NCBI GenBank assembly: GCA_021776825.1
Contig: JAJFFG010000017.1
Span: forward strand, 1 to 64,000
Source of the DNA: Planctomycetota bacterium
Lineage (GTDB): Bacteria > Planctomycetota > JAJSAM01 > JAJVHW01
DNA length: 64,000 bases
Reading direction: 5' to 3'
Shown: in pieces, positions 58-61,908 of the stretch
How positions within the stretch are numbered: the stretch's first letter is position 1
How the letters are laid out: each line of letters opens with the position of its first letter
The notes under the pieces: model-generated
The model's input: only the letters and a program-made list of their open reading frames with translations
Told to the model about the DNA's origin: nothing
Databases searched by the model: none
Program-made: the position numbers and the translations under genes

Positions 58-2253
58 CTACCGGAACGTGAAGGGGATGGTCAGCGTGTCGACCGACGGG
101 CTCGTCTGCGTGGTCAGGTTGTTCTGCAACGTGACACGGAAGCGGACGAACGGGTTGCTGGCCAACGACCGGATGTCATTCGTCCACGCGGAGAGCGTCG
201 ACGGATCGAGCACCACGGGGTTATTGACGTCGGCGCGACCGCCCTGCCACTCGATCAGGACCACGGTGCCCTGGGGCTGCGTGAACGGAACCACCTGCTG
301 CGGCACGTAGCGCACGGTCGAGTGCTGCGTGTTGTAGAACTGCGACTGCGCCTCAGCGCCCGGAGTCAGGAAGTTGAGCTGCAGCGAGTGGTACCAGGGC
401 TGACCCTGGATCACCGGCGGGTTGTCCTGGAACAGCGAGAACGTCATCGCGTTCAACGGGTAGGCGTTGTCGATCTGCCAGTTCTCGGCCAGGTTGCCCG
501 CGGTCCCGTTGCCGAAGTGCTCGAGCTCGAGGATCACGCCGCTCTGGCCGTCGGTGTTGAAGTTCGACGACCAGATCGGTCCCGGCGTCCGCCTGAACAA
601 CTCACCCGGCACGAGCCCCGTCGCGGGGATGGTGTAGTTCGACGGAAGCGAGACGACCACAGGGGTCTCACCATAGTGCGACGCCTGCGGTCCCGGAGGA
701 GCGGTGCCCCCACCGAAGCCGCCCGACGCGATGATCTCGGAGGCGTTGCCGATGGTGACCTTGGTGCTCGGGTAGGTCAGGTTCAACTGCGTGCCGTCCT
801 GGAACCAGCTGAAGCCAGTCAGCGTACGCGGGCGACCACCCATGTCCGTGCTCGTGAACAGCATCTGCCATCGCACGGCGCGCGGGAACCACACATTCGT
901 GAAGCTGCCCGGGGCCGGTCCGGTGATGTCGAACGCGGTCTCGGTCACCTGGGTCGTGAGCTCGCCGGGGAACGTCGGGCTGTTCCAGTCGGCCAACACG
1001 TTGTCCGTCGTCGGGCTGGGCGTGAAGGTCTGGTCGAGCTGCGCGATGCCGTCGAAGGTCTCGACAGTGTCCCCGATGAACTCGGCGAGCAGGTTCTCTT
1101 CGGTCGTGAAGACGAACTGCTGCTGACGAATGATGTTGTTGCCCGAGAGGTCGGTCACGCCATCCGTGATGGTGACCTGGATCTCGTGGGGTCCGCGGCC
1201 GAAGCCCTGCAGAGGACGGAGCTGGACAACGTTGCCCGCTGTCTGTGGCTTCACGCGCACGGAGGCGAGAACGTCGTTGCCGGCGAGCGCGCCATTCAGC
1301 GGCGACTGCGTGTACGCGACCTGGACGGTCGCGGCGGTGTCGCCGAGGAAGCGAGGCAACTGGAAGGTCGCCACGTCCATCGGCTCGTTGAAGGCGATCT
1401 CGATGTCGTCGTCGCTCGGCACGTTGGGCGTGCCGTCGGTCGGCGACGTCGTGCGGATCTCTGGACGTGTGAAGTCCTGCACGTATCGATCTGACGTGGT
1501 GAACGTCGTCGTGAAGGCCTGCGACAGCGGGATTCCGTCGAGGTTCGTCACGAGAGTGAGCAGGTTCGTCGCGCCGGGACCGCCGTCGATCGAGACGGCG
1601 AACGGCGTCAGCGCGTCGAAGCCGTCCGGGTTGTAGTCGATCTCGTTCGGCTGGTTGAACGTCGCGACCACGAAGCGCGGGTTGAAGACGAAGCGGTTGC
1701 CGACGTAGCGACGCCGGCGCGGCTTGCGCACCTTGAAGAACACGCCGCGAGCCTGCGTCTCACCGCCACCCGCCGTGCTCACGATGCGGACGCTGTCACT
1801 GCTCACCGAGCCGGTGGCAACGACGCGCGCCGTCGTGTCGGGGTTGCGGCGACGCGTGATCGCGCCGGGATCGAAGGTGGAGTTCGGATCGCCGCCGAGC
1901 TCCTTGAAACGTCGCTGCTCAGCAGGCGTCGCCGTGCCCTCGTTCAACTTCAGCCGCAGGCCCTCGAGCTCGGACTGCTCGGCCAGCGTGAGCGGCAGTG
2001 TCGAACGGAGGTTCGCACCCGTGTCGACCGCGCCGGAGAAGATGAACATCAGGACCGCGTTGCGATCGACGTTCGTCGCCCCGCGACCGGCCACGGGGAT
2101 GAACTTCCCGCTTCGGGCGAAGTAGCCGGCCTGGAATCGAACCAGGACGATCGACTTCTGCCGCGCCATCGCGACCTCGTGGGCGCCCATCGCTCCGAAG
2201 CCGGCGAGTGCGCCAGCCACGAGCCCGAGGACCAAGCCTCTGCGCTTCGTCAT
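58..2253 (-). CDS. Secreted protein with a bacterial Ig-like (Big_5) domain
   Basis: A 731-residue exported protein of unknown function. The start at 2253 is chosen because GGAGG lies five bases upstream and the next residues form a signal peptide (basic TKRR, hydrophobic core, ending near AMA). The in-frame start 14 codons earlier would spoil the signal. Residues about 260-385 carry a Big_5/SbsA-type Ig-like domain, recognisable from TSPTDGTPNVPSDDDIEIAF followed by NEPMD. A poorer Big_5-like stretch may lie near the N-terminus (VLMFIFSGAVDT). The rest is beta-rich, with no catalytic motif, C-terminal anchor or sorting tag that I can identify. Such Ig-like secreted proteins are frequent in planctomycetes and related phyla. 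It is monocistronic as far as the window shows. Confidence 0.85.
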   Translation of the reverse strand: MTKRRGLVLGLVAGALAGFGAMGAHEVAMARQKSIVLVRFQAGYFARSGKFIPVAGRGATNVDRNAVLMFIFSGAVDTGANLRSTLPLTLAEQSELEGLRLKLNEGTATPAEQRRFKELGGDPNSTFDPGAITRRRNPDTTARVVATGSVSSDSVRIVSTAGGGETQARGVFFKVRKPRRRRYVGNRFVFNPRFVVATFNQPNEIDYNPDGFDALTPFAVSIDGGPGATNLLTLVTNLDGIPLSQAFTTTFTTSDRYVQDFTRPEIRTTSPTDGTPNVPSDDDIEIAFNEPMDVATFQLPRFLGDTAATVQVAYTQSPLNGALAGNDVLASVRVKPQTAGNVVQLRPLQGFGRGPHEIQVTITDGVTDLSGNNIIRQQQFVFTTEENLLAEFIGDTVETFDGIAQLDQTFTPSPTTDNVLADWNSPTFPGELTTQVTETAFDITGPAPGSFTNVWFPRAVRWQMLFTSTDMGGRPRTLTGFSWFQDGTQLNLTYPSTKVTIGNASEIIASGGFGGGTAPPGPQASHYGETPVVVSLPSNYTIPATGLVPGELFRRTPGPIWSSNFNTDGQSGVILELEHFGNGTAGNLAENWQIDNAYPLNAMTFSLFQDNPPVIQGQPWYHSLQLNFLTPGAEAQSQFYNTQHSTVRYVPQQVVPFTQPQGTVVLIEWQGGRADVNNPVVLDPSTLSAWTNDIRSLASNPFVRFRVTLQNNLTTQTSPSVDTLTIPFTFR

Positions 2254-2370
2254 GAGTCCTCCATCATGTGACTCTCGTGAGTCACACACGACCACGCTAA
2301 CCCACGTGCCGCAGCACGTGGAAACCTGAAAGCCCCAGCCGCCTCGATGATAGAGGCGGTGCCCCCCATG

Positions 2371-4176
2371 TCAAGCGGACCTAATCCCGTCCCCGGGCTC
2401 GTTGCCGGTCTCCGCGGGCGAGGCCACGTCGAGCTGGAGAGACAGTTCGACCAACTGCGCCGGATCCACCGTCGACGGAGCGCCGCTCATCAGGTCCGCC
2501 GCGCTCGTCGTCTTCGGGAACGCGATCACGTCGCGGATCTGCTCCAGGCCGAGGAGCGAGGCTGCCAGCCGATCGAGACCGGAAGCGCAGCCACCGTGCG
2601 GAGGTGCCCCGTATCGGAGAGCCTCCAGGAAGAAGCCGAACCGCTGCTGAGCCTCGTCGGCTCCGATCCCCAGCAGTTCGAAGACGCGCGACTGGACGTC
2701 GTGCTGGTGGATGCGGATGCTCCCGCCGGCGACCTCCTCGCCGTTCAGCACGAGATCGTAGGCCAGCGCGCGCACGCTCTTCGGGGCGCTGTCGAGCAGA
2801 GGCACGTCCTCGGGCAGCGGTGCCGTGAACGGATGATGCGCCGCGTCGAGCCGCTGTTCGTCCTCGTTCCACGCGAAGAGCGGGAAGTCGACGACCCAGA
2901 GCAGTTCGTAGCGCGCCGGGTCGCGGAGTTCGAACAGCTTGCCGAGGTGCACGCGCAGATCGCCCGACGCGGGGACGACGACCTCGGAAGGACCAGCCAG
3001 GAACAGGGCGATCCCGCCCTCCTGCAGGCCGAGTGCCTCCGTCAGCCCGCTCTGCTCAGCATCCGTCAGATGCTTCGCCGCCGCACCGGACCACCCCTCG
3101 GCCTTGATCCGAACCCACGCGACGCCGCGCGCGCCGCGGTCGGCAACGGCGGCGGGGAGCGCATCCAGCTTCTTGCGGCTGAGCGGGTGCTCCGGCCCGA
3201 GTGCGATGGCGCGGATGCGACCTCCGGCCTTCGCGGCGCCGCTGAAGACGCCGAACGCGCAGTCCTGGAGGATCTCCGTGACGTCGACCACGGGGAGCCC
3301 GAAGCGCAAATCGGGCTTGTCGGTGCCGTAGCGCGCCACAGCCTCCGCGTACGGCATGCGCCGGACCGAACTGGGGATCTCGACGCCGGCGATCTCGCGG
3401 ACGAGGCGCACGACGAGCGACTCGACGACCTCGAGGACGTCGTCCTGTTCGACGAACGACATCTCGATGTCGAGCTGCGTGAACTCGGGCTGGCGGTCGG
3501 CGCGAAGGTCTTCGTCGCGGAAGCAGCGCGCGATCTGCCAGTACCGGTCCATCCCCCCCACCATCAGGATCTGCTTGAGGATCTGCGGCGACTGGGGCAG
3601 CGCGTAGAAGGAGCCCGGATGGACCCTGGACGGCACGAGGTAGTCGCGGGCGCCCTCGGGCGTCGAGCGCAGCAGGATCGGGGTCTCCACCTCAACGAAC
3701 GCCTGCGCGATCATGTGCTCGCGGATGATCTGGTTCATCCGTGCCCGCGTCTCGAGCGCGTTGCGGACCTCGGGGCGCCGCATCTCGAGGTAGCGGTAGC
3801 GAAGACCCAACTCCTCGGAGCTGCGCTCCTCACCGGTCACGGCCACCGGGAGCGGTGCCGAAGCCGAGAGGACCTCGAACTCCTCGAGCACCACCTCGAT
3901 CTGACCGGTGGACCGGTCCTTGTTGCGGTTGGCGTCCGGACGTGTGCGCACGACTCCGGTACCCCGCACGACCCATTCGAGTCGGACGCGATCGGCGGCA
4001 GCCCCGGCCTCCGGAAACTCCGGCTCGGTGACCACCTGCGTGACGCCGTAGCGATCGCGGAGGTCCAGGAACAGCAGCCCACCGTGATCACGGCGGTTCT
4101 GGACCCAGCCGCAGAGCGTCACACGCTCTCCGTCGTTCGCCGCTCGCAGCTCACCGCAGGTGTGGGTTCTCAGCAT
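2371..4176 (-). CDS. aspS: Aspartyl-tRNA synthetase
   Basis: Class IIb aminoacyl-tRNA synthetase of 601 residues, charging tRNA-Asp in the cytoplasm. The N-terminal OB-fold carries GWVQNRRDHGG (residues 23-33). The class II core shows motif 1 (FVEVETPIL, 160-168), motif 2 (FRDEDLRADRQPEFTQLD, 219-236) and motif 3 near the C-terminus (PHGGCASGLDRL). The bacterial GAD insertion occupies the middle, so this is the bacterial-type enzyme. Motif 3 reads GCASG where GIAFG is usual, a mild deviation. The start has GGAGG five bases upstream. I cannot tell from sequence alone whether the enzyme is discriminating or also makes Asp-tRNA-Asn. Divergent from ndk. Confidence 0.97.
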   Translation of the reverse strand: MLRTHTCGELRAANDGERVTLCGWVQNRRDHGGLLFLDLRDRYGVTQVVTEPEFPEAGAAADRVRLEWVVRGTGVVRTRPDANRNKDRSTGQIEVVLEEFEVLSASAPLPVAVTGEERSSEELGLRYRYLEMRRPEVRNALETRARMNQIIREHMIAQAFVEVETPILLRSTPEGARDYLVPSRVHPGSFYALPQSPQILKQILMVGGMDRYWQIARCFRDEDLRADRQPEFTQLDIEMSFVEQDDVLEVVESLVVRLVREIAGVEIPSSVRRMPYAEAVARYGTDKPDLRFGLPVVDVTEILQDCAFGVFSGAAKAGGRIRAIALGPEHPLSRKKLDALPAAVADRGARGVAWVRIKAEGWSGAAAKHLTDAEQSGLTEALGLQEGGIALFLAGPSEVVVPASGDLRVHLGKLFELRDPARYELLWVVDFPLFAWNEDEQRLDAAHHPFTAPLPEDVPLLDSAPKSVRALAYDLVLNGEEVAGGSIRIHQHDVQSRVFELLGIGADEAQQRFGFFLEALRYGAPPHGGCASGLDRLAASLLGLEQIRDVIAFPKTTSAADLMSGAPSTVDPAQLVELSLQLDVASPAETGNEPGDGIRSA

Positions 4177-10647: not shown

Positions 10648-11103
10648 CTAGGCCGACTCGGCCGCCTCCTCCTCGGGAACCTCGAGAGACTCGAGGGACT
10701 CCGGGTTCGGATCGAAGGTCACGAGCTCGAACAAGGCCGTCGGCGCATTGTCCCCAAGCCGCCCCTTGGCGTGCTGGAGGATGCGCGTGTAGCCACCCGG
10801 GCGGTCGGTGAACTGCGGCCCGATCTCCTCGATCAGGTGCGCGACGATCGACTCGTCGTGCAGCTCCTTCAGGAGCCTGCGGTACGCGTTCAGCGCGGTG
10901 ATCGTATCGTCGGCGGCGCGCGCTGCCGCGCCCCGCTTGGCGATCGTGATCATCTTCTCGGCGTAGGGACGGAACTCCTTCGCCTTCGCTAGCGTGGTCG
11001 TGATCCGCCCATGGCGGAACAACGCCTTCACCACGTCACGCCGTAGGGCGCGACGCGGGTCTGTCTTGCGTCCGAACTTCCGCCCGCTCTTGCGATGCCG
11101 CAT
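10648..11103 (-). CDS. rplQ: Ribosomal protein bL17
   Basis: Large-subunit protein near the tunnel exit, 151 residues. It starts with MRHRKSGRKFGRKTDPRRAL, diagnostic of L17. The family's core ends near residue 125; the extra acidic tail (SLESLEVPEEEAAESA) is lineage-specific. Last gene of the alpha operon, 18 bases after rpoA, the usual neighbour. Confidence 0.98.
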   Translation of the reverse strand: MRHRKSGRKFGRKTDPRRALRRDVVKALFRHGRITTTLAKAKEFRPYAEKMITIAKRGAAARAADDTITALNAYRRLLKELHDESIVAHLIEEIGPQFTDRPGGYTRILQHAKGRLGDNAPTALFELVTFDPNPESLESLEVPEEEAAESA

Positions 11104-11121
11104 CGTGCTCTCCCTTGAACG

Positions 11122-12135
11122 CTAGGCGTTCAGGATGGCGTCCACGTCCATGCCGAGATCGAGGTCGAGCTCCTTGAGCTTCTTCTCGATCTCGCGCAGC
11201 GACGTCTTGCCGAAGTTCTTCACGTTCAGGAGCTCGTCCTTGCTCCGACCGACGAGCTCGCCAACCGTCTCGATCTCCTGCTCGGCCATGCAGTTCGCAG
11301 CGCGAACCGAGAGGTCGAGTGACGAGATCGCACGCATCATGATCTCTTTGAGCGACGTCGTCGCCGAGCCCTCGTCACCACTGGGCGTCGCCAGTGGCGA
11401 GAAGATGCTCGACGGAGCCGCCGGACCCGCATCGCCCGGGAGGACGAATGGGTTCAGGTGCTTGCGGTAGATCTTGGCGGCCTCGAGCAGCGCCATCTCA
11501 GGCGTGACCGTGCCGTCGGTCCAGATCTCGGTGACGAGCTTGTCGTAGTTCGTCATCTTGCCCACACGCGTCGCGTGGGTGCTGTAGCGCACACGCTGGA
11601 CCGGCGAGAAGATGGAGTCGATCGGGATGACTCCCAACTCCATGTCCTCGTCGTAGTTCTCATCGGCGGTCACGTAGCCGCGGCCGCGGCGCACGGTGAC
11701 CTCCATGTCGAGTTCCACGTCGTCACCAGAGATGGTGCAGATGTACAGATCGCGGCTCACGACCTCGCAGTCCGACGTGTCCGTGAAGTCGCCAGCCGTG
11801 ACGGCACCCTTGCCCGACTTGCGAAGACGCAGCGTGCGAGGGTCGTTCGTCTCAAGACGGACGAGCAGCTTCTTCATGTTCAGGACGATCTCGGTCACGT
11901 CCTCGAGGACGCCTTCGATCGTCGAGAACTCGTGCTCGACCCCGCCGATCTTCAGGTGCGTCGGAGCCGCACCCTCGAGGGAGGACAGCAGCACGCGCCG
12001 GAGGCCGTTGCCGACGGTCGTCCCGAAGCCCTTCTCGAAGGGCTCGGCGATGAACATGCCGTACGTGTCGCTGCTGACGGTCTCGTCACGCACGACCCTG
12101 TTCGGCAGCTCGAACTCGCGCCAACGAATGCGCAT
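11122..12135 (-). CDS. rpoA: RNA polymerase subunit alpha
   Basis: 337 residues. The N-terminal assembly domain includes GFGTTVGNGLRRVLLSSLEG. The C-terminal domain (about 255-337) has the helix-hairpin-helix LLNVKNFGKTSLREIEKKL that contacts UP elements and activators. The linker is Ala/Pro/Ser-rich. It lies between rpsD and rplQ as in most bacteria, with a 105-base spacer from rpsD. Confidence 0.98.
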   Translation of the reverse strand: MRIRWREFELPNRVVRDETVSSDTYGMFIAEPFEKGFGTTVGNGLRRVLLSSLEGAAPTHLKIGGVEHEFSTIEGVLEDVTEIVLNMKKLLVRLETNDPRTLRLRKSGKGAVTAGDFTDTSDCEVVSRDLYICTISGDDVELDMEVTVRRGRGYVTADENYDEDMELGVIPIDSIFSPVQRVRYSTHATRVGKMTNYDKLVTEIWTDGTVTPEMALLEAAKIYRKHLNPFVLPGDAGPAAPSSIFSPLATPSGDEGSATTSLKEIMMRAISSLDLSVRAANCMAEQEIETVGELVGRSKDELLNVKNFGKTSLREIEKKLKELDLDLGMDVDAILNA

Positions 12136-33851: not shown

Positions 33852-36800
33852 CTAGAAGGCCTGGCGGTCCAGCTCGATGTTGAGCGCCAGCCCCTTGATC
33901 TCGTTGCAGAGCACCTCGAAGGAGACCGGCGTGCCGGCCTCGAGGAGGTTCTCGCCCTTGACCATGGACTCGTAGATCTTCGTGCGACCGTCGACGTCGT
34001 CCGACTTGACGGTCAGCAGCTCCTGGAGGATGTACGCGGCGCCGTACGCCTCGAGCGCCCAGACCTCCATCTCACCGAAGCGCTGGCCGCCGAAGCGGGC
34101 CTTGCCGCCAAGCGGCTGCTGGGTGATCAGGCTGTAGGGGCCCGTGGCACGGGCGTGCACCTTGTCGTCGACCAAGTGGTGCAGCTTCAGCATGTAGATG
34201 ATGCCGACGGTGACTTCCTGGTCGAACGGCGTGCCCGTACGGCCGTCGTTCAGGCGGCTCTTGCCGGTGCGGGCCAGTCCGGCCTGGTCGAGCATGTCCT
34301 CGATCTGGGACTCGCGGCAGCCGTCGAAGACGGGCGTCGCGACGCGCTTGCCCAGCCGCTTGGCGGCCCAGCCCACGTGCGTCTCGAGGATCTGTCCGAC
34401 GTTCATTCGCGACGGCACGCCGAGCGGGTTCAGGATGATGTCCACCGGAGTGCCATCGTCCAGGTACGGCATGTCCTCGATGGGCAGGATGACGGAGACG
34501 ACACCCTTGTTGCCGTGGCGGCCGGCCATCTTGTCGCCCACCGACAGTCCACGCTTGGTGGCGATGTAGACGCGCACCATCTCGAGCACACCAGTCTGCA
34601 GCTCGTCACCGCGCGAGAGGCGGTTGACGCGCTTGTTCTTCTCGTTCTCGAGCGTGTCGATGCGGTCGTACAGGTCCTTCACGACGCGCAGCCCACGGTC
34701 CTTCGACGCCCCGTCGCCGGCGTGGATGATCGTCGACTTCAGGCGGTCGCGCAGATCGCGCACCTCGTTGACATTCGCATCGCCGAGGATCACGAACGCC
34801 GTCTGGGTGGCCGGGTCCTCGAGCTTGCCCTTGTAGGCGGTCTGGACCTTCTCGACGCACTCGCGCATGAGGTTCTTCAGGTCTGCGGTGAAGCCGCGCT
34901 CGAGACGCTTGATCTCGGCGAGGTTCTTCTGCCGCTCCTCTTCCGTGAGGTTGACCTTGCGCGTGAACTTCTCGGCATCGATGACGATGCCGTCGACGCC
35001 CGGAGGTACCTCCAGGCTGTCGTTCTTCACGTCTTCACCGGCGCGACCGAAGATCGCGTGGAGCAGCTTCTCCTCGGGGGAGAGCTCGCTCTTCGACTTC
35101 GGCGCGACCTTCCCGACGAGGATATCGCCGGGCTTGATGCGCGTGCCCATGCGGATGACGCCGGTCTCGTCGAGATTGCGCAGCGCCTTCTCGGAGACGT
35201 TCGGGATGTCCCGCGTGAACTCCTCGCGACCGAGCTTGGTCTCGCGGATCTCGATCTCGAACTCCTCGATGTGGATCGAGGTGTAGACGTCCCGCTTGAG
35301 CAGGCTCTCCGAGACGATGATCGCGTCCTCGAAGTTGTAGCCCTCGAAGCTCATGAAGGCGACGAGGACGTTCTTGCCGAGGGCGAGCTCGCCGTTCAGC
35401 GTGCCGCCACCGTCCGAGATGACCTGGCCCTTCTTGACCTTCTGGCCCTCGATGACGCAGGGCTGCTGGTTGAGGCAGGTGCGCTCGTTCAGCCCGACGA
35501 ACTTGCGGAGTCGGTACTCCTTCTCGTCGACCAGGATGCGCTTCGAGTCGACATAGGTGACGGTGCCCGAGTTCTCGGCCACGACCACCATGCCGGAGTA
35601 GCGCGGAACCTCGGACTCCATGCCCGTGCCCACGACCGGCGGGTCGGTCCAGATCAGCGGGACCGCCTGTCGCATCATGTTCGAGCCCATGAGCGCGCGG
35701 TTCGCGTCATCGTGCTCGAGGAACGGGACGAGCGACGCCGAAACGCCCACGACCTGTCGCGGCGACACGTCGAGGAACTCGACGTCCATCGGCGAGACGA
35801 GCACGAAGTCACCGGCCTGGCGGGCCAGGACCTGGTCGGATGCCAGACGTCCCTTCTCGTCGATGTCAGCATCGGCCGGACCCAGCGTGCCGGCAGCCTC
35901 CTCGTCGGCGCGCAGGAGTCGGATCTCGTCGGTGACCTTGCCGTTCTTCACCACGCGATAGGGCGTGACGAGGAAGCCGTAGTCGTCGACCGCGGCGTAG
36001 ATGGCGAGCGAGCTGATCAGACCGATGTTCGTGCCTTCCGGCGTTTCAATCGGGCAGATGCGGCCGTAGTGCGAGATGTGCACATCGCGCACCTCGAAGC
36101 CGGCGCGCTTGCGGTTCAGGCCGCCCGGGCCGAGGGCCGAGAGACGACGCTCGTGCGTGAGCTGCGACAGGGGGTTCGTCTGGTCGACGACCTGCGACAG
36201 TTCGCCACGACCGAAGAAGTACTCGATCGCGCTGGAGATGGTCTTCGAGTTGATCAGAGCGCGCGGCGTGAGCTTGGACGGATCGTCCATGTTCATGCGC
36301 TCCTGGACGGTGCGGCGGAGCTTGAGGAAGCCCTTGCGCAGTTCGTCCGACGCCAGCTCGCAGATCGAACGGACGCGACGGTTGCCGAGATGGTCGATGT
36401 CGTCCGTCTCGCCCTCGTTCTTCCGGAGCTTCATCAGGTACTTGATGCAGTTCAGGATGTCTTCGGGCTTGAGCGTCTGCTCCGTCTCGGGGATGTCGAT
36501 GCCGAACTTCCGGTTCAGGCGGAAGCGACCGACCTTGCCGAGGCGGTAGCGCGACGAGTCGAAGAACTTGTCGCGGAACAGGTCCTTGGCCTTCTCGACG
36601 TTGGGCGGGTTGCCCGGACGCAGGCGGCCGTAGATCTTGAGGAGCGCTTCCTCGTGCGAGGTCGTCGTGTCCTCGGAGAGCGCGTTGAGGATGAGCGGAT
36701 CGTCCACTTCCTCGACGACCTCGACCTCGGTCACGTTGGCCTGAGCGACGACGCCGGCCAGGTCCTCGTTGATGATCTGCAGCGCGTCGACCAGGATCTC

Positions 36801-50181: not shown

Positions 50182-50841
50182 TCAGTCGCGCCACTCGGCA
50201 TAGACGTCGCGCCACTCGGTCCAGACGACGACGCTCCCACTGGTGGTGACCGCATTCGCCGCTGCCTCGATCCGTGCGTAGCGCGTTCCCCTCCCGCGCC
50301 AGTGCCCGAGCAGTTCGTGGCGCAGCCAGGGAAGCGGATGGGCGGGGCTGATGACGGACATCTCGGTAGCTTCGTCCACGTCGGCGGGCACGACCCACAT
50401 CCCGCTCGGGCCGAACCAGCCCGAGAGCGCGGCGTCGTAGCCCTCGATCCCGTCTCCGCCGCGAGTCGTCGCGACGCGCACCACGTTCGGCCCGGACGTG
50501 GCGATCCACACACGAGCCGGCGCGTCCGGGATGTCGCGGCTCGCGATCGCGAGGACCTCCAGAGCGAGCAGCGCCACGAGGAACGCCCCCTGCAAGACCG
50601 CCGCCACCGTGCGCCCGACGACGAACGAGTGGCGCCGCTCAGCACCGGGGCGCATGGGCGCTGACGTCCGGCGCATGCGCCGCAAGACGGGCGGCCCGAA
50701 CATCACCAGGATCGCCGCGACGAGGAGCACCGGCGCCCACGCGTAGAGGTCGTCCTGCGGTGCCAACATAAGGAACACGAGGTTCACGCCGATCAGCGCC
50801 GCTGCCAGCCGCAGCAGCGCGCGCAACCGAGCCGGCGTCAA
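50182..50841 (-). CDS. Hypothetical membrane protein
   Basis: 219 residues if translation starts at the TTG overlapping the upstream stop (TTGA, 50838-50841). Three hydrophobic helices (about 8-28, 33-50, 74-94) precede a soluble C-terminal domain with GGDGIEGYDAALSGWFGPSG and an aromatic end VVVWTEWRDVYAEWRD. No recognised family. Translationally coupled to the gene at 50838-51464. Confidence 0.6.
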   Translation of the reverse strand: MTPARLRALLRLAAALIGVNLVFLMLAPQDDLYAWAPVLLVAAILVMFGPPVLRRMRRTSAPMRPGAERRHSFVVGRTVAAVLQGAFLVALLALEVLAIASRDIPDAPARVWIATSGPNVVRVATTRGGDGIEGYDAALSGWFGPSGMWVVPADVDEATEMSVISPAHPLPWLRHELLGHWRGRGTRYARIEAAANAVTTSGSVVVWTEWRDVYAEWRD

Positions 50842-51464
50842 CGCGGTTCGTCCGGAGCGAGCCAGGCGTCCGGGCGCTCCGTGTCGTCGAGAGGCGCGCG
50901 GCCCTGCGACTGTTCCGCGTGCAGGTGCTGCACCAGTGCCGCGAGCATGTGCTGGATGACGGATCGTCCAGCGGGGACCAGGGGCGGTGCGGGAGCGCCC
51001 GTGTCGACCGGGAGGATGGCCGCGAACGACGCGTCGCGCATATGGATCACCGCGGTGCCGTCGTCGCACGCCAGAGAAATCACCAGCCTGCGCATGCGCG
51101 CCGGCCTCGTGGGCGCTGGCGGCGTCCCTGCTTGCGGGTTCGGTACGACGACCCATCGGATCGGTGGTGCCTTCCCCACCGAGGGTGTGGAACCTGCCGG
51201 ACTCCAGTCGAACAGGAGCTTCCGCGGCCTCACTCCGTGCTCCGCCGCAATCAGCTCCCGCTCGCGGGGGATGCGCAGGTCGTAGACGCGCGGGTCGCCC
51301 TCCATTCGAATGCAGCAGCGGTCGTTCACTGCCACGAGCCCGATCGCCACGACGCGCTCAGGCCACGCGACGAACGCAATCAGCCAGAGGAACGCGAGAC
51401 CGTGGAGCACCGCGCCGATCAGGCGCAGCGGCGCAACGCGACGGGGCTTCTGCGGCGGACGCAT
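50838..51464 (-). CDS. AWP-type single-pass membrane protein
   Basis: 208 residues, family unknown. The N-terminus RRVAPLRLIGAVLHGLAFLW runs into a membrane segment ending AFVAWPER. A Cys pair, a YDLRIPRER segment and a C-terminal stretch MRDASFAAILPVDTGAPAPP follow. Both ends resemble the small protein at 59720-60166, which has FVAMVAMVAWPER and YRDASISVILGRFAGSVLP. TACGAT lies exactly six bases before the ATG with no SD, so the mRNA is probably leaderless. Confidence 0.65.
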   Translation of the reverse strand: MRPPQKPRRVAPLRLIGAVLHGLAFLWLIAFVAWPERVVAIGLVAVNDRCCIRMEGDPRVYDLRIPRERELIAAEHGVRPRKLLFDWSPAGSTPSVGKAPPIRWVVVPNPQAGTPPAPTRPARMRRLVISLACDDGTAVIHMRDASFAAILPVDTGAPAPPLVPAGRSVIQHMLAALVQHLHAEQSQGRAPLDDTERPDAWLAPDEPR

Positions 51465-58884: not shown

Positions 58885-59085
58885 GCGTCGCAGCCCCCTG
58901 ATCGGCGGATGGCAGCGAGCCGTCGGCCCGCACTGCGACTCAGCTCTGCTGGACGTTCGAGGGACGGGTGATCGTGCGGCGATCGTCGGGCCGGTCGCTC
59001 TCGGGCTAGTCGGCGGGTACTTCGAGTTCGTGGACGTCGCTCTCCGACTCGTCTCGGCCCTGACCGACGGCCCGGCCTCGCCCGG

Positions 59086-59091
59086 TACGAT
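59086..59091 (+). promoter_or_regulatory. -10 box of module copy 1 (TACGAT)
   Basis: TACGAT, six bases, then the ATG at 59098. The block 59069-59100 is repeated at 60949-60980 with two mismatches, so the promoter was duplicated with the genes. Confidence 0.7.
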
Positions 59092-59097
59092 GAGCGG

Positions 59098-59340
59098 ATG
59101 ACCGCGGACCAGGTCCCGCCGCCGAGGAAGCCGAGAGGGGCGCGCGTGCTCGTGCCGGCGTTGGCGATCCTCGGGGGGCTCGTCCTCGTCGCCGCACCGC
59201 AGCGGCCTCGCTTCTCGCCAACCAGGCTGGCTGCGGCGGGCCCGGTGGTTCACTTGAAGGAGCGCTGGGACGCGAAGCCCGGCTGGCGGGCGGCAGTCGT
59301 CGCGAGGAGGGCGCTCCTGAGAGTGCCGAGCAGGAGGTGA
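59098..59340 (+). CDS. Small membrane protein A1 (module copy 1)
   Basis: 80 residues. VPPPRKPRGARVLVPALAIL leads into a single membrane helix (GGLVLVAAP). The C-terminal half is basic and divergent. The first 25 codons match A2 at 60978. Its stop overlaps the start of B1 (GTGA). No known family; real because of the paired copy, the conserved promoter and the tight overlap. Confidence 0.6.
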   Translation: MTADQVPPPRKPRGARVLVPALAILGGLVLVAAPQRPRFSPTRLAAAGPVVHLKERWDAKPGWRAAVVARRALLRVPSRR

Positions 59341-59735
59341 TCCCCCGCCGCCCCGCTCGCTGGTCCTGGAGCGTCCTCGGGGGCGTCGTGCGCGGCGTGG
59401 GCTACGCGCTGGTCGTCGTCGTCGCCACCGCGGCGATTGCGTGGCCGGTGCGACTACGTTCCATCGCGATGCGATACCCGAACGCTCCCCTCCCCGAGCC
59501 AGACTGGCTAGCGCGACACCGTGTGACCAGCCCGCTGTGGAACTCGATCGACATTGACGAGAATCGCGTGCTCGAGTCCGGACTCCCCACAACCGACGAC
59601 GTGTTCAAGCGGCTGAACGTGCCAGCGTCACGGTGCTTCTTCGTAGAGGGGCCACGGCGACCGGGACCGCCTCCGCCGTACGACTTCAGCGATCGCGAGT
59701 ACGTCGTGTGGCGGCAGTCGTGGCTGACCGAGTAG
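59337..59735 (+). CDS. Small AWP-type membrane protein B1 (module copy 1)
   Basis: 132 residues from a GTG. RRPARWSWSVLGGVVRG precedes a helix ending AAIAWPVR; the outer part contains SPLWNSIDIDENRVLESGLP and ends YVVWRQSWLTE. The N-terminal 17 codons are nearly identical to B2 at 61223. Overlaps A1 by four bases and C1 by 16. Function unknown. Confidence 0.62.
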   Translation: MIPRRPARWSWSVLGGVVRGVGYALVVVVATAAIAWPVRLRSIAMRYPNAPLPEPDWLARHRVTSPLWNSIDIDENRVLESGLPTTDDVFKRLNVPASRCFFVEGPRRPGPPPPYDFSDREYVVWRQSWLTE

Positions 59736-60166
59736 CCCCCCGTCGCCCCCGTCGCTGGAGCTGGGCCGTCCTACGAGCGGCCGTCCTCGGCCTCGGGTTC
59801 GTCGCGATGGTGGCGATGGTGGCTTGGCCGGAGAGGCACACCCTCCTCAGGTTCTTCCCCGGGGGCGGGAGTTCAGTTCAGTGCCACGTCCAGACCATGT
59901 CAGGCGAATGGCAGGAGATCGACGCCCGCTGCCACTTTCGGCCCAACGCCGCGACGCTCCGCTTCTCGGGCCCCGATGCGCCACGCCTGCTGATCTCGCC
60001 AGACCCTCGGGCTGGTGAGCTGCACGCCTACCGAGACGCCTCAATCTCCGTCATCCTCGGACGTTTCGCCGGTTCCGTTCTCCCCGCCACCGTCGCTCCG
60101 GCCGGCGCCGGCTTCATCGCCGCCGTCGAACCGGCCGTCCCCGCCTCCGCCGTGCTGGCCCTCTGA
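59720..60166 (+). CDS. Small AWP-type membrane protein C1 (module copy 1)
   Basis: 148 residues from a GTG inside the end of B1. RRPRRWSWAVLRAAVLGLGF leads to a helix ending VAMVAWPER. The outer part has a Cys pair (SVQCHVQ, DARCHF) and YRDASISVILGRFAGSVLP, which resembles the protein at 50838-51464. The last 126 bases overlap the convergent lipoprotein gene at 60041-60571. Confidence 0.6.
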   Translation: MADRVAPRRPRRWSWAVLRAAVLGLGFVAMVAMVAWPERHTLLRFFPGGGSSVQCHVQTMSGEWQEIDARCHFRPNAATLRFSGPDAPRLLISPDPRAGELHAYRDASISVILGRFAGSVLPATVAPAGAGFIAAVEPAVPASAVLAL

Positions 60167-60571
60167 CCTCAAGGTCTCCGCCATCGCACGTAGCGACATC
60201 CAGCCCCGCTGGCTGGCGTCGGCGTCTTCGTGCGCAGCGCGCCCTGCCCCTCCTTCGTTGCCACCACGCGATGCGACCCCACGTCCGTCACCTGCCTCGT
60301 CGCCGCCATCGCGATCATTCCCGTGCGAGGTTCCCTCGCCAGGCGAGATGGCCGCCGTCTGAGTCCCGAAGACACCGTCGAACCACTTCGGGATGTCGAG
60401 GACGTGCTTCGTGGTGCCGCCGTCGCCTGTCTCCTGACCGGCCGTCCGAGTGCTGGCCCCGATCTGGGTGGCTCGTCCGTCAACCCCTCCACCCTGCCCA
60501 GCGCAGCTCGTCGTGCCGAGCGTCGTCAGTCCAAGTGCCACAACACCAAGCGTGATGATGCGTGTCGTCAT
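60041..60571 (-). CDS. Gly/Asp-rich lipoprotein
   Basis: 176 residues from the ATG at 60571, with GGGAGG just upstream. Signal peptide with Cys23 in GTTSCAG. Only HVLDIPKWFDGVFGTQT and GWMSLRAMAETLRSEGQ look ordered; the rest is Gly/Asp/Glu-rich. Function unknown. The low-complexity tail is antisense to the end of C1, so the true extent of one of the two is uncertain. Confidence 0.55.
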   Translation of the reverse strand: MTTRIITLGVVALGLTTLGTTSCAGQGGGVDGRATQIGASTRTAGQETGDGGTTKHVLDIPKWFDGVFGTQTAAISPGEGTSHGNDRDGGDEAGDGRGVASRGGNEGGAGRAAHEDADASQRGWMSLRAMAETLRSEGQHGGGGDGRFDGGDEAGAGRSDGGGENGTGETSEDDGD

Positions 60572-60651
60572 TCGTACCTCCCGCGCAAACGATACGGGGA
60601 GTCGAGTCCTGCGGCGTCGTAGCGCCGAACGCTGGCCGCGACCTCGCCCAG

Positions 60652-60657
60652 TACGAT
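60652..60657 (+). promoter_or_regulatory. -10 box of a probable leaderless promoter (TACGAT)
   Basis: TACGAT, six bases, then the GTG at 60664. Confidence 0.6.
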
Positions 60658-60663
60658 GTCTCG

Positions 60664-60936
60664 GTGTCGCCTGGCAGCATCCACGACCCACAGAAGCCGG
60701 CGACGACAGATGGCGAGCGGGTCGCATCGGTGTTCTTCGGCCTGAGCGCCTCGCTCGTGGGCGCCCTCATGGTCCTGCTGGGCATCGTCGGAGCCGTCGG
60801 CGGTTCCCGTACTGCACTCGCCCACCACGGCAACCTGGAGCTCGGCGACCTGGGGGGACTCGCGTTCTGCCTCGGGCTCACGCTCGCGGGTGGCCTTGCG
60901 TGTGCGATCGGAGCCCGGCTCATCGCGAGACGCTAG
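60664..60936 (+). CDS. Small two-helix membrane protein
   Basis: 90 residues from a GTG placed by the TACGAT-N6 promoter. Two hydrophobic helices (VFFGLSASLVGALMVLLGIV; GLAFCLGLTLAGGLACAIGA) joined by a short loop. No recognised family. Lies divergently from the lipoprotein gene and directly upstream of module copy 2. Confidence 0.55.
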   Translation: MSPGSIHDPQKPATTDGERVASVFFGLSASLVGALMVLLGIVGAVGGSRTALAHHGNLELGDLGGLAFCLGLTLAGGLACAIGARLIARR

Positions 60937-60965
60937 TCGAGTGCAGATGGCCCGGCCTCGCCCCG

Positions 60966-60971
60966 TAGGAT
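60966..60971 (+). promoter_or_regulatory. -10 box of module copy 2 (TAGGAT)
   Basis: TAGGAT, six bases, then the ATG at 60978; a duplicate of the element at 59086-59091 with one change in the hexamer. Confidence 0.65.
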
Positions 60972-60977
60972 GAGCGG

Positions 60978-61214
60978 ATGGACGACGCCCGCGTCCCGCC
61001 GCCGAGGAAGCCGAGGGGCGCGCGCGTTCTCGTTCCAGCCTTGGCTTTGGTGGGCGGGTTCTGCCTCACGGCCTTCCCCGCTAGCCCCCGGTACGACCCG
61101 TGGGGGCAGTATCACGACAGCATCATTGTCTCCGACACCCTGACCGGGCGCTGCTGATACGTGTTCGACGACGGTCGACCGCCAGAGGACTGGTTGACGC
61201 GCGGCGACTACTAG
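60978..61214 (+). pseudogene. Small membrane protein A2 (module copy 2), interrupted by TGA
   Basis: The start MDDARVPPPRKPRGARVLVP matches A1. Translation meets an in-frame TGA at 61155-61157 after 59 codons. Beyond it the same frame stays open to a TAG at 61212 (YVFDDGRPPEDWLTRGDY), which would give 78 residues, close to A1's 80. This suggests a recent nonsense mutation. A real 59-residue product, or a sequencing error, is possible. Confidence 0.5.
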
Positions 61215-61222
61215 GTCCGACC

Positions 61223-61483
61223 GTGAACCCCCGCCGCCCCGCCCGCTGGTCCTGGAGCGTCCTCGGGGGAGTCGTCCGCGGCGTGCTGTTCGTGTGGGTG
61301 GTCGCGCTCGTGGCGTGGCCAGTCGAGCCGTGGGGCTGGTGGTACCCGTGCGACGAGGTGGATCATGGGGCACAGGCACCTCCAGCGCCTTCCAAGTGCA
61401 AGTGCGTTCCGTCGCTCCGGGGTGTAGCGAGCTGGCGATCCTGGCCCTGCCGCCTCATCGACGGCCGCCGGTACGGCTGGTAG
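61223..61483 (+). CDS. Small AWP-type membrane protein B2 (module copy 2)
   Basis: 86 residues from a GTG. RRPARWSWSVLGGVVRGVLF and a helix ending ALVAWPVE are near-identical to B1 at the N-terminus. The outer part is different and Cys-rich (four to five Cys, including SKCKCVP). Nine bases after the A2 frame ends. Confidence 0.55.
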   Translation: MNPRRPARWSWSVLGGVVRGVLFVWVVALVAWPVEPWGWWYPCDEVDHGAQAPPAPSKCKCVPSLRGVASWRSWPCRLIDGRRYGW

Positions 61484-61489
61484 TACGGC

Positions 61490-61908
61490 GTGCCGACCGC
61501 CCCCCGCCGCCCCGTCGCTGGAGCTGGGCCGTCCTCCGCGCCGCCGCCCTCGGCCTCGGGATCGTCGCGATGGTGGGGTGGCCAGTCAGGGCCACGTGCG
61601 ACCTCAGGGAGTTCTCTGGCGGACTTGGCGTTCGGCTCGGTCCCGCTCCGACCATCGACTGCGACTGGTGGAATGCGGGACCTGGAGGGTGCGAGGACGC
61701 CGTGAACTGTGTTGCGTCGATCCCGTGGGCGCTTATCGCCGCGCGTACGGGAGAGGCCATGGACGACGACGGGGCGCCGCGGAAGCACCGGCTCAGGGCC
61801 ACTGTGGACGCCTGTGAGCGCTCCATCTCTGGCTACGAAGGTGCCAGCCGGCGACGAGCTCGTGGGGACCCGCTCGAGTGGCTCGTGGGGTCCCCCGCCG
61901 GAGGTTGA
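61490..61908 (+). pseudogene. Small AWP-type membrane protein C2 (module copy 2), frameshifted
   Basis: The sequence RRWSWAVLRAAALGLGIVAM then VGWPVR matches C1, but the matching GTG start at 61490 is in another frame. Between start and WSW motif C1 has five C in a run and C2 has four (near 61510-61513). Restoring one C joins the frames. The downstream frame then stays open to 61908 with a Cys-containing outer domain unlike C1. Either a frameshifted gene or a homopolymer sequencing error. Confidence 0.5.

Follow-up and report, generated by a model that had tools for sequence, protein, structure and literature searches.

Within the window, the whole 64,000-nucleotide stretch of planctomycete DNA that was analysed, two modules of small genes (A1-B1-C1 and A2-B2-C2) lie on the same strand, separated by a conserved gene on the opposite strand and by a short gene here called P, and a more distant gene of the same type stands alone elsewhere in the window. 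Every encoded protein combines a short basic N-terminus and one hydrophobic helix (together, the anchor) with a tail of about 43-175 residues. Relatives elsewhere in the genome are designated by class letter and contig, so that the array on contig C12 contains A_12, B_12, C_12 (also C12_C) and D_12 (also C12_D). The features are as follows.

50838..51464, minus strand: solitary distant member, 208 aa, with the same anchor, WPER and a TACGAT-type start
59069..59100, plus strand: promoter-like block of module 1; TACGAT hexamer beginning 12 nt before the ATG at 59098, leaderless-like
59098..59340, plus strand: A1, 80 aa, of which 47 form the outer region; basic N-terminus and TM 15-33
59337..59735, plus strand: B1, 132 aa; PRRPARWSWS anchor, TM 17-35, outer region of 97 aa
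59720..60166, plus strand: C1, 148 aa, GTG start at 59720; chimera of a C-type anchor and a D-type outer domain
59735..59837, plus strand: C-type anchor segment of C1; 89% nucleotide identity to C12_C and 70% to C12_D
59838..60070, plus strand: D-type outer segment of C1; 97% nucleotide identity to the C12_D outer region, with the RDASISVILGRF motif at its end
60041..60571, minus strand: conserved gene separating the two modules, with a Gly-rich, secreted or lipoprotein-like product; homologue in the C12 array
60664..60936, plus strand: P, located upstream of A2 and encoding a small protein in which two stretches are hydrophobic; 53% amino acid identity to the gene upstream of A_12
60949..60980, plus strand: promoter-like block of module 2; hexamer TAGGAT, two differences from 59069-59100
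60978..61157, plus strand: A2, 59 aa to the in-frame TGA at 61155-61157; the frame runs on to 61214 (YVFDDGRPPEDWLTRGDY)
61223..61483, plus strand: B2, 86 aa; anchor 89% identical in nucleotides to B_12
61480..61908, plus strand: conserved frame of C2; anchor intact in sequence, without an in-frame start nearby

The initial annotation had described this region as a duplicated three-gene module with a common gene order and near-identical 5' coding sequences, and in-window blastn on the three gene pairs confirmed that the duplication is real. The anchor-coding DNA of the two modules is 84-94% identical (E 1e-22 to 1e-26), with matches between 59066-59165 and 60946-61045 (84%, E 2e-26), between 59337-59399 and 61223-61285 (94%, E 1e-22) and between 59735-59813 and 61499-61576 (91%, E 8e-26). 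The promoter blocks carry exactly two mismatches in 32 bases, as claimed, and the proposed conservation of the cytosolic tail and membrane helix, with divergence of the remainder, agrees with the basic N-terminus and single hydrophobic helix found in every gene. Two other parts of the description stood only in part: the overlaps hold for module 1 (4 nt between A1 and B1, 16 nt between B1 and C1) but not for module 2, where A2 ends at its TGA, and the three-gene unit holds in the window, whereas the fullest arrays elsewhere in the genome have four genes. No cysteine directly follows the helix in A1, B1 or C1. The AlphaFold model of C1, made from five window proteins, has low confidence and is reliable only around the helix, with pLDDT below 50 from residue 39.

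Module 2 looks damaged, both by the in-frame TGA of A2 and by the lack of a start codon near the conserved frame of C2. Past the TGA, the A2 frame carries FDDGRPP, a motif also present in A_111, and the outer regions of A2 and A_111 match with E 7e-4 (blastp). In C2, where a run of C is one C shorter than its counterpart in C1, the GTG at 61490 is one base out of frame; the closest start codon in frame is a GTG at 61294, inside B2. Both lesions could be real or could be sequence errors.

The TACGAT-GAN-CGG-ATG arrangement of module 1 is also found upstream of A_12 and A_111. On the plus strand of the window, a TANNNT hexamer located 8-15 nt upstream is found for only 5 of 757 ATGs. Such hexamers lie about 12-14 nt before the start codons at 59098, 60978, 51464 (minus strand) and 62006 of the window, at 34059 (minus strand) of contig C12 and at 18429 of contig C111, a spacing that corresponds to a leaderless-type arrangement.

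The family has about 20 members dispersed in the 6.9-Mb genome (G000), a count that depends on the cut-off used and includes many members that were themselves in the query alignment. Contigs C12 and C111 carry A-B-C-D arrays and C62 a C-D pair, and single members are found on C113, C35, C74 and C27 (the last one weak), besides the one on the minus strand of the window at 51464. This window member scored E 5e-22 in the profile search, whose query alignment already included it, and E 0.12 against C1 alone. In the A/B/C/D anchor family, a PRRPxRWS-type basic N-terminus precedes a single helix that ends in AWP(E); the anchors of the B, C and D classes are similar to each other, and anchors group by class in nucleotide identity (0.71-0.90 between B anchors, 0.61-0.90 between C anchors and 0.70-0.73 between D anchors), the weakest of the C class being that of C2 (0.61-0.73 to the other C anchors). 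A C-terminal RDxSxSVILG motif is seen in C1, C_12, C_111, C_62, D_12 and D_111, and is absent or unrecognisable in D_62 and C2. On contig C113, a 242-bp inverted repeat (1-242 and 1282-1523, 90% identical) flanks the solitary member at about 443-559. The conserved order and the overlapping genes of C12, C111 and window module 1 would fit A, B, C and D being obligate subunits of one membrane complex, their divergence reflecting subunit co-evolution, but the single or paired members on C62, C113, C35 and C74 and at 51464 of the window, together with the movement of outer domains between classes (see below), make this highly improbable.

The surroundings of the family members are not constant. 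No partner gene common to all arrays was found, and the flanking genes tested vary from locus to locus; a flanking 246-aa gene is absent from the family relatives, and therefore synteny could not be traced through it. P and the divergent Gly-rich gene are common to the C12 array and to the second window module. The gene at 60041-60571 (minus strand) has its sole family-associated homologue upstream of P in the C12 array (86% nucleotide identity over aligned columns, with segments of 87% and 73% amino acid identity), and its tail is of unequal length in the two copies. Near the members on contigs C62 and C35 lie two genes whose secreted products, 438 and 434 aa long, look alike and match nothing in Pfam (10693-12009 and 33945-35249, respectively, both on the minus strand, in contig coordinates). 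In general layout, small membrane paralogues that stand in tandem and vary in their outer domains are like arrays of immunity genes, and the present arrays might, by analogy, be orphan immunity or anti-toxin arrays whose tandem membrane proteins neutralise toxins acting in the periplasm. This is very unlikely, given that no gene next to the arrays was recognisable as one for a toxin or for secretion and that the tested flanks differ between loci.

The outer domains, which the initial annotation had suspected to be swapped, have been reassorted among the copies, and C1 is the clearest case. The 123 informative sites in C1 change affinity at the WPE codons: left of the break, 26 are C-like and 8 D-like, and right of it 2 are C-like and 87 D-like (maximum chi-squared permutation p 5e-5, with 0 of 20,000 shuffles reaching the observed value). 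The outer segment is only 39% identical to that of C_12, near the shuffled level. At about 60074, the point corresponding to the end of its paralogue D_12 (GRFAE followed by a stop), C1 does not have that stop and reads on, and its last approximately 30 codons run antisense to the conserved gene at 60041-60571. An assembly artefact could in principle produce such a chimera, since C1 and C12_D share exact repeats of 73 and 114 nt and the genome is assembled in 133 contigs. Nevertheless, C1 differs from C12_D between and around these repeats (at 59918, 59936, 59937, 59946, 60061 and 60064), which requires a second D-like copy, and the reassortment at C111 and C12 stands without C1; we consider the artefact very unlikely.

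This independent reassortment is visible in the outer bodies compared without their C-terminal motif, which fall into a type I (C1, C_111 and D_12) and a type II (C_12 and C_62). Type I is found on both C and D anchors, and C anchors that are 90% identical bear unrelated bodies of one or the other type, so that the outer type does not track anchor class. A resemblance of the D_111 outer body to those of C_12 and C_62 was not significant once the shared C-terminal motif had been removed. Comparing window module 2 with the C12 array, the flanks and anchors are 65-89% identical in nucleotides over aligned columns, and the outer domains of A2 and B2 are near the shuffled level, that of B2 not being alignable to B_12 above it. 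A1 matches A_12 (G000:C12:34059-33826) with 69% amino acid identity over 79 of 80 residues, and no relative of the 97-aa outer region of B1 was detected.

Based on these comparisons and on database searches, this single-pass membrane-protein family is small, previously undescribed and lineage-restricted. The earlier statement that no known family was recognisable holds for Pfam, NCBIfam and PHROGs, which gave no family above the curated cut-off or with E <0.001. A profile scan of genome contigs with the C-type alignment gave no relative, the viral contigs and plasmids searched gave no match, and nothing relevant was found in the literature on planctomycete small-protein families. A secure homologue is present in one of 148 related genomes (149 searched, including its own), that of a sister-genus species (G003), in which the homologue has the family anchor and a YRDAxxxVLL end. 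Weak matches (E 5e-4 to 8e-3) occur in eight genomes of the same phylum, and none of those inspected, from some of these genomes, looked like a family member. Two checks of the planctomycete affiliation did not confirm it: rpoB matched a MAG at 62%, and PF07596 was found neither in this genome nor in the controls. The array around the G003 homologue (1069-3701 of G003:C6:1-9000) belongs to another family of small single-pass proteins, which end in CIAVEEWW(M/L)NR; this family was matched nine times in G003 and not at all in G000. These proteins are like the A/B/C/D family in their small size, basic N-terminus (PPRKPRG.RRWPW type), single helix and conserved C-terminal motif, but both the helix and the motif are different. 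A Resolvase-domain fragment (1885-2310) lies beside this array.

Codon-usage scores are weak for A1, B1 and B2, and those of A1 and B1 were equalled by an antisense frame containing one stop; coding was therefore judged by codon-position substitution patterns. In pairwise comparisons, anchor differences at codon positions 1/2/3 number 53/40/97, the pattern expected of coding DNA under constraint, and the anchors are coding and constrained, with dN/dS of about 0.2-0.5 in most close pairs (0.64 for B1/B_12). The outer-domain differences show no bias (208/174/200). In both sets the pairs are non-independent, and many outer pairs align poorly. Homologues do exist, and the codon-position evidence favours coding over frames that behave like antisense. 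The diversifying pressure proposed for the outer parts was not borne out: where the alignment is secure, their dN/dS is about 1 (0.39/0.37 for A1/A_12 and 0.039/0.042 for C1/D_12, the latter resting on few changes), which fits neutral drift equally well, so that selection for diversity is not required.

These values bring forward the main rival, a strong one which explains much of the same evidence: relaxed constraint, or neutral turnover with partial decay, in which anchors duplicate and stay inserted in the membrane, while outer regions with little or no selected function drift, recombine and decay. Besides the outer dN/dS and the missing codon-position bias, it would accommodate the TGA in A2, the lack of a nearby start in C2, the loss from C1 of its paralogue's stop and the near confinement of the family to one genome. 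Against it, paralogues retain the RDxSxSVILG motif, part of which is also found in the sister genus, several four-gene arrays are intact, and the swapped outer domain of C1 is still an open frame. We give relaxed constraint an appreciable, though minority, probability.

Families with a constant leader and variable domains are best known in pathogens such as mycoplasmas. The Vpma lipoproteins of M. agalactiae and the Vsp lipoproteins of M. bovis are paralogues with conserved 5' regions and signal-peptide coding sequence, the rest of the coding sequence being divergent or mosaic and the set being reshaped by recombination (PMC2268961). The A/B/C/D family is similar in its conserved upstream and N-terminal coding region and its divergent remainder. 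It differs in that a transmembrane anchor takes the place of the lipoprotein signal peptide as the constant part, and in that several arrays have a promoter-like block of their own; phase switching belongs to the Vpma/Vsp side of the comparison. In the partly annotated flanks of the window arrays, no gene for a site-specific recombinase was recognised.

In the reading that we favour, a constant cassette, formed by a short basic cytosolic tail and one membrane helix ending in AWPE, carries a variable domain of roughly 45-175 residues that lies beyond the membrane and, in the C/D class, often finishes with [Y/H]RDxSxSVILG. The fullest unit is an A-B-C-D operon with a leaderless-type promoter, and in two arrays P and a secreted-protein gene in divergent orientation are also present upstream. 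The family is dispersed through the genome, its outer domains are exchanged at a boundary marked by the shared anchor-coding DNA, and the exchange itself was probably caused by homologous recombination between anchor-coding segments. The topology is predicted to be N-in, with the outer domain in the periplasm, and, as their most likely role, the proteins might serve as a limited set of membrane-tethered domains that bind or recognise fast-changing targets. We are confident of the architecture and of the reassortment of outer domains. The recognition role is possible but doubtful. Taken as a whole, a constant-anchor family with exchangeable outer domains, evolving by duplication and ectopic recombination and serving in recognition, is a reading that we hold with about even confidence; it has against it that none of the outer domains shows a recognisable fold, that an outer dN/dS near 1 does not call for selection for diversity, that module 2 looks damaged and that the arrays lack a common partner gene. 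More speculatively, and in our judgement improbably, recombination in the anchor DNA may keep supplying membrane proteins with new outer domains that follow changes in external partners, phages or competitors among them, with parallel systems on unrelated anchors operating in sister genera.

The family shows an uncultured bacterium reshuffling membrane-anchored domains, in which the anchor is constant and the outer part is lost, replaced or swapped. The visible exchange boundary and the recent chimera would make it possible to test directly whether selection acts on such shuffling outside host infection. Orphan small-protein genes in genomes of this kind need not be random open frames but can be reassorted modules.
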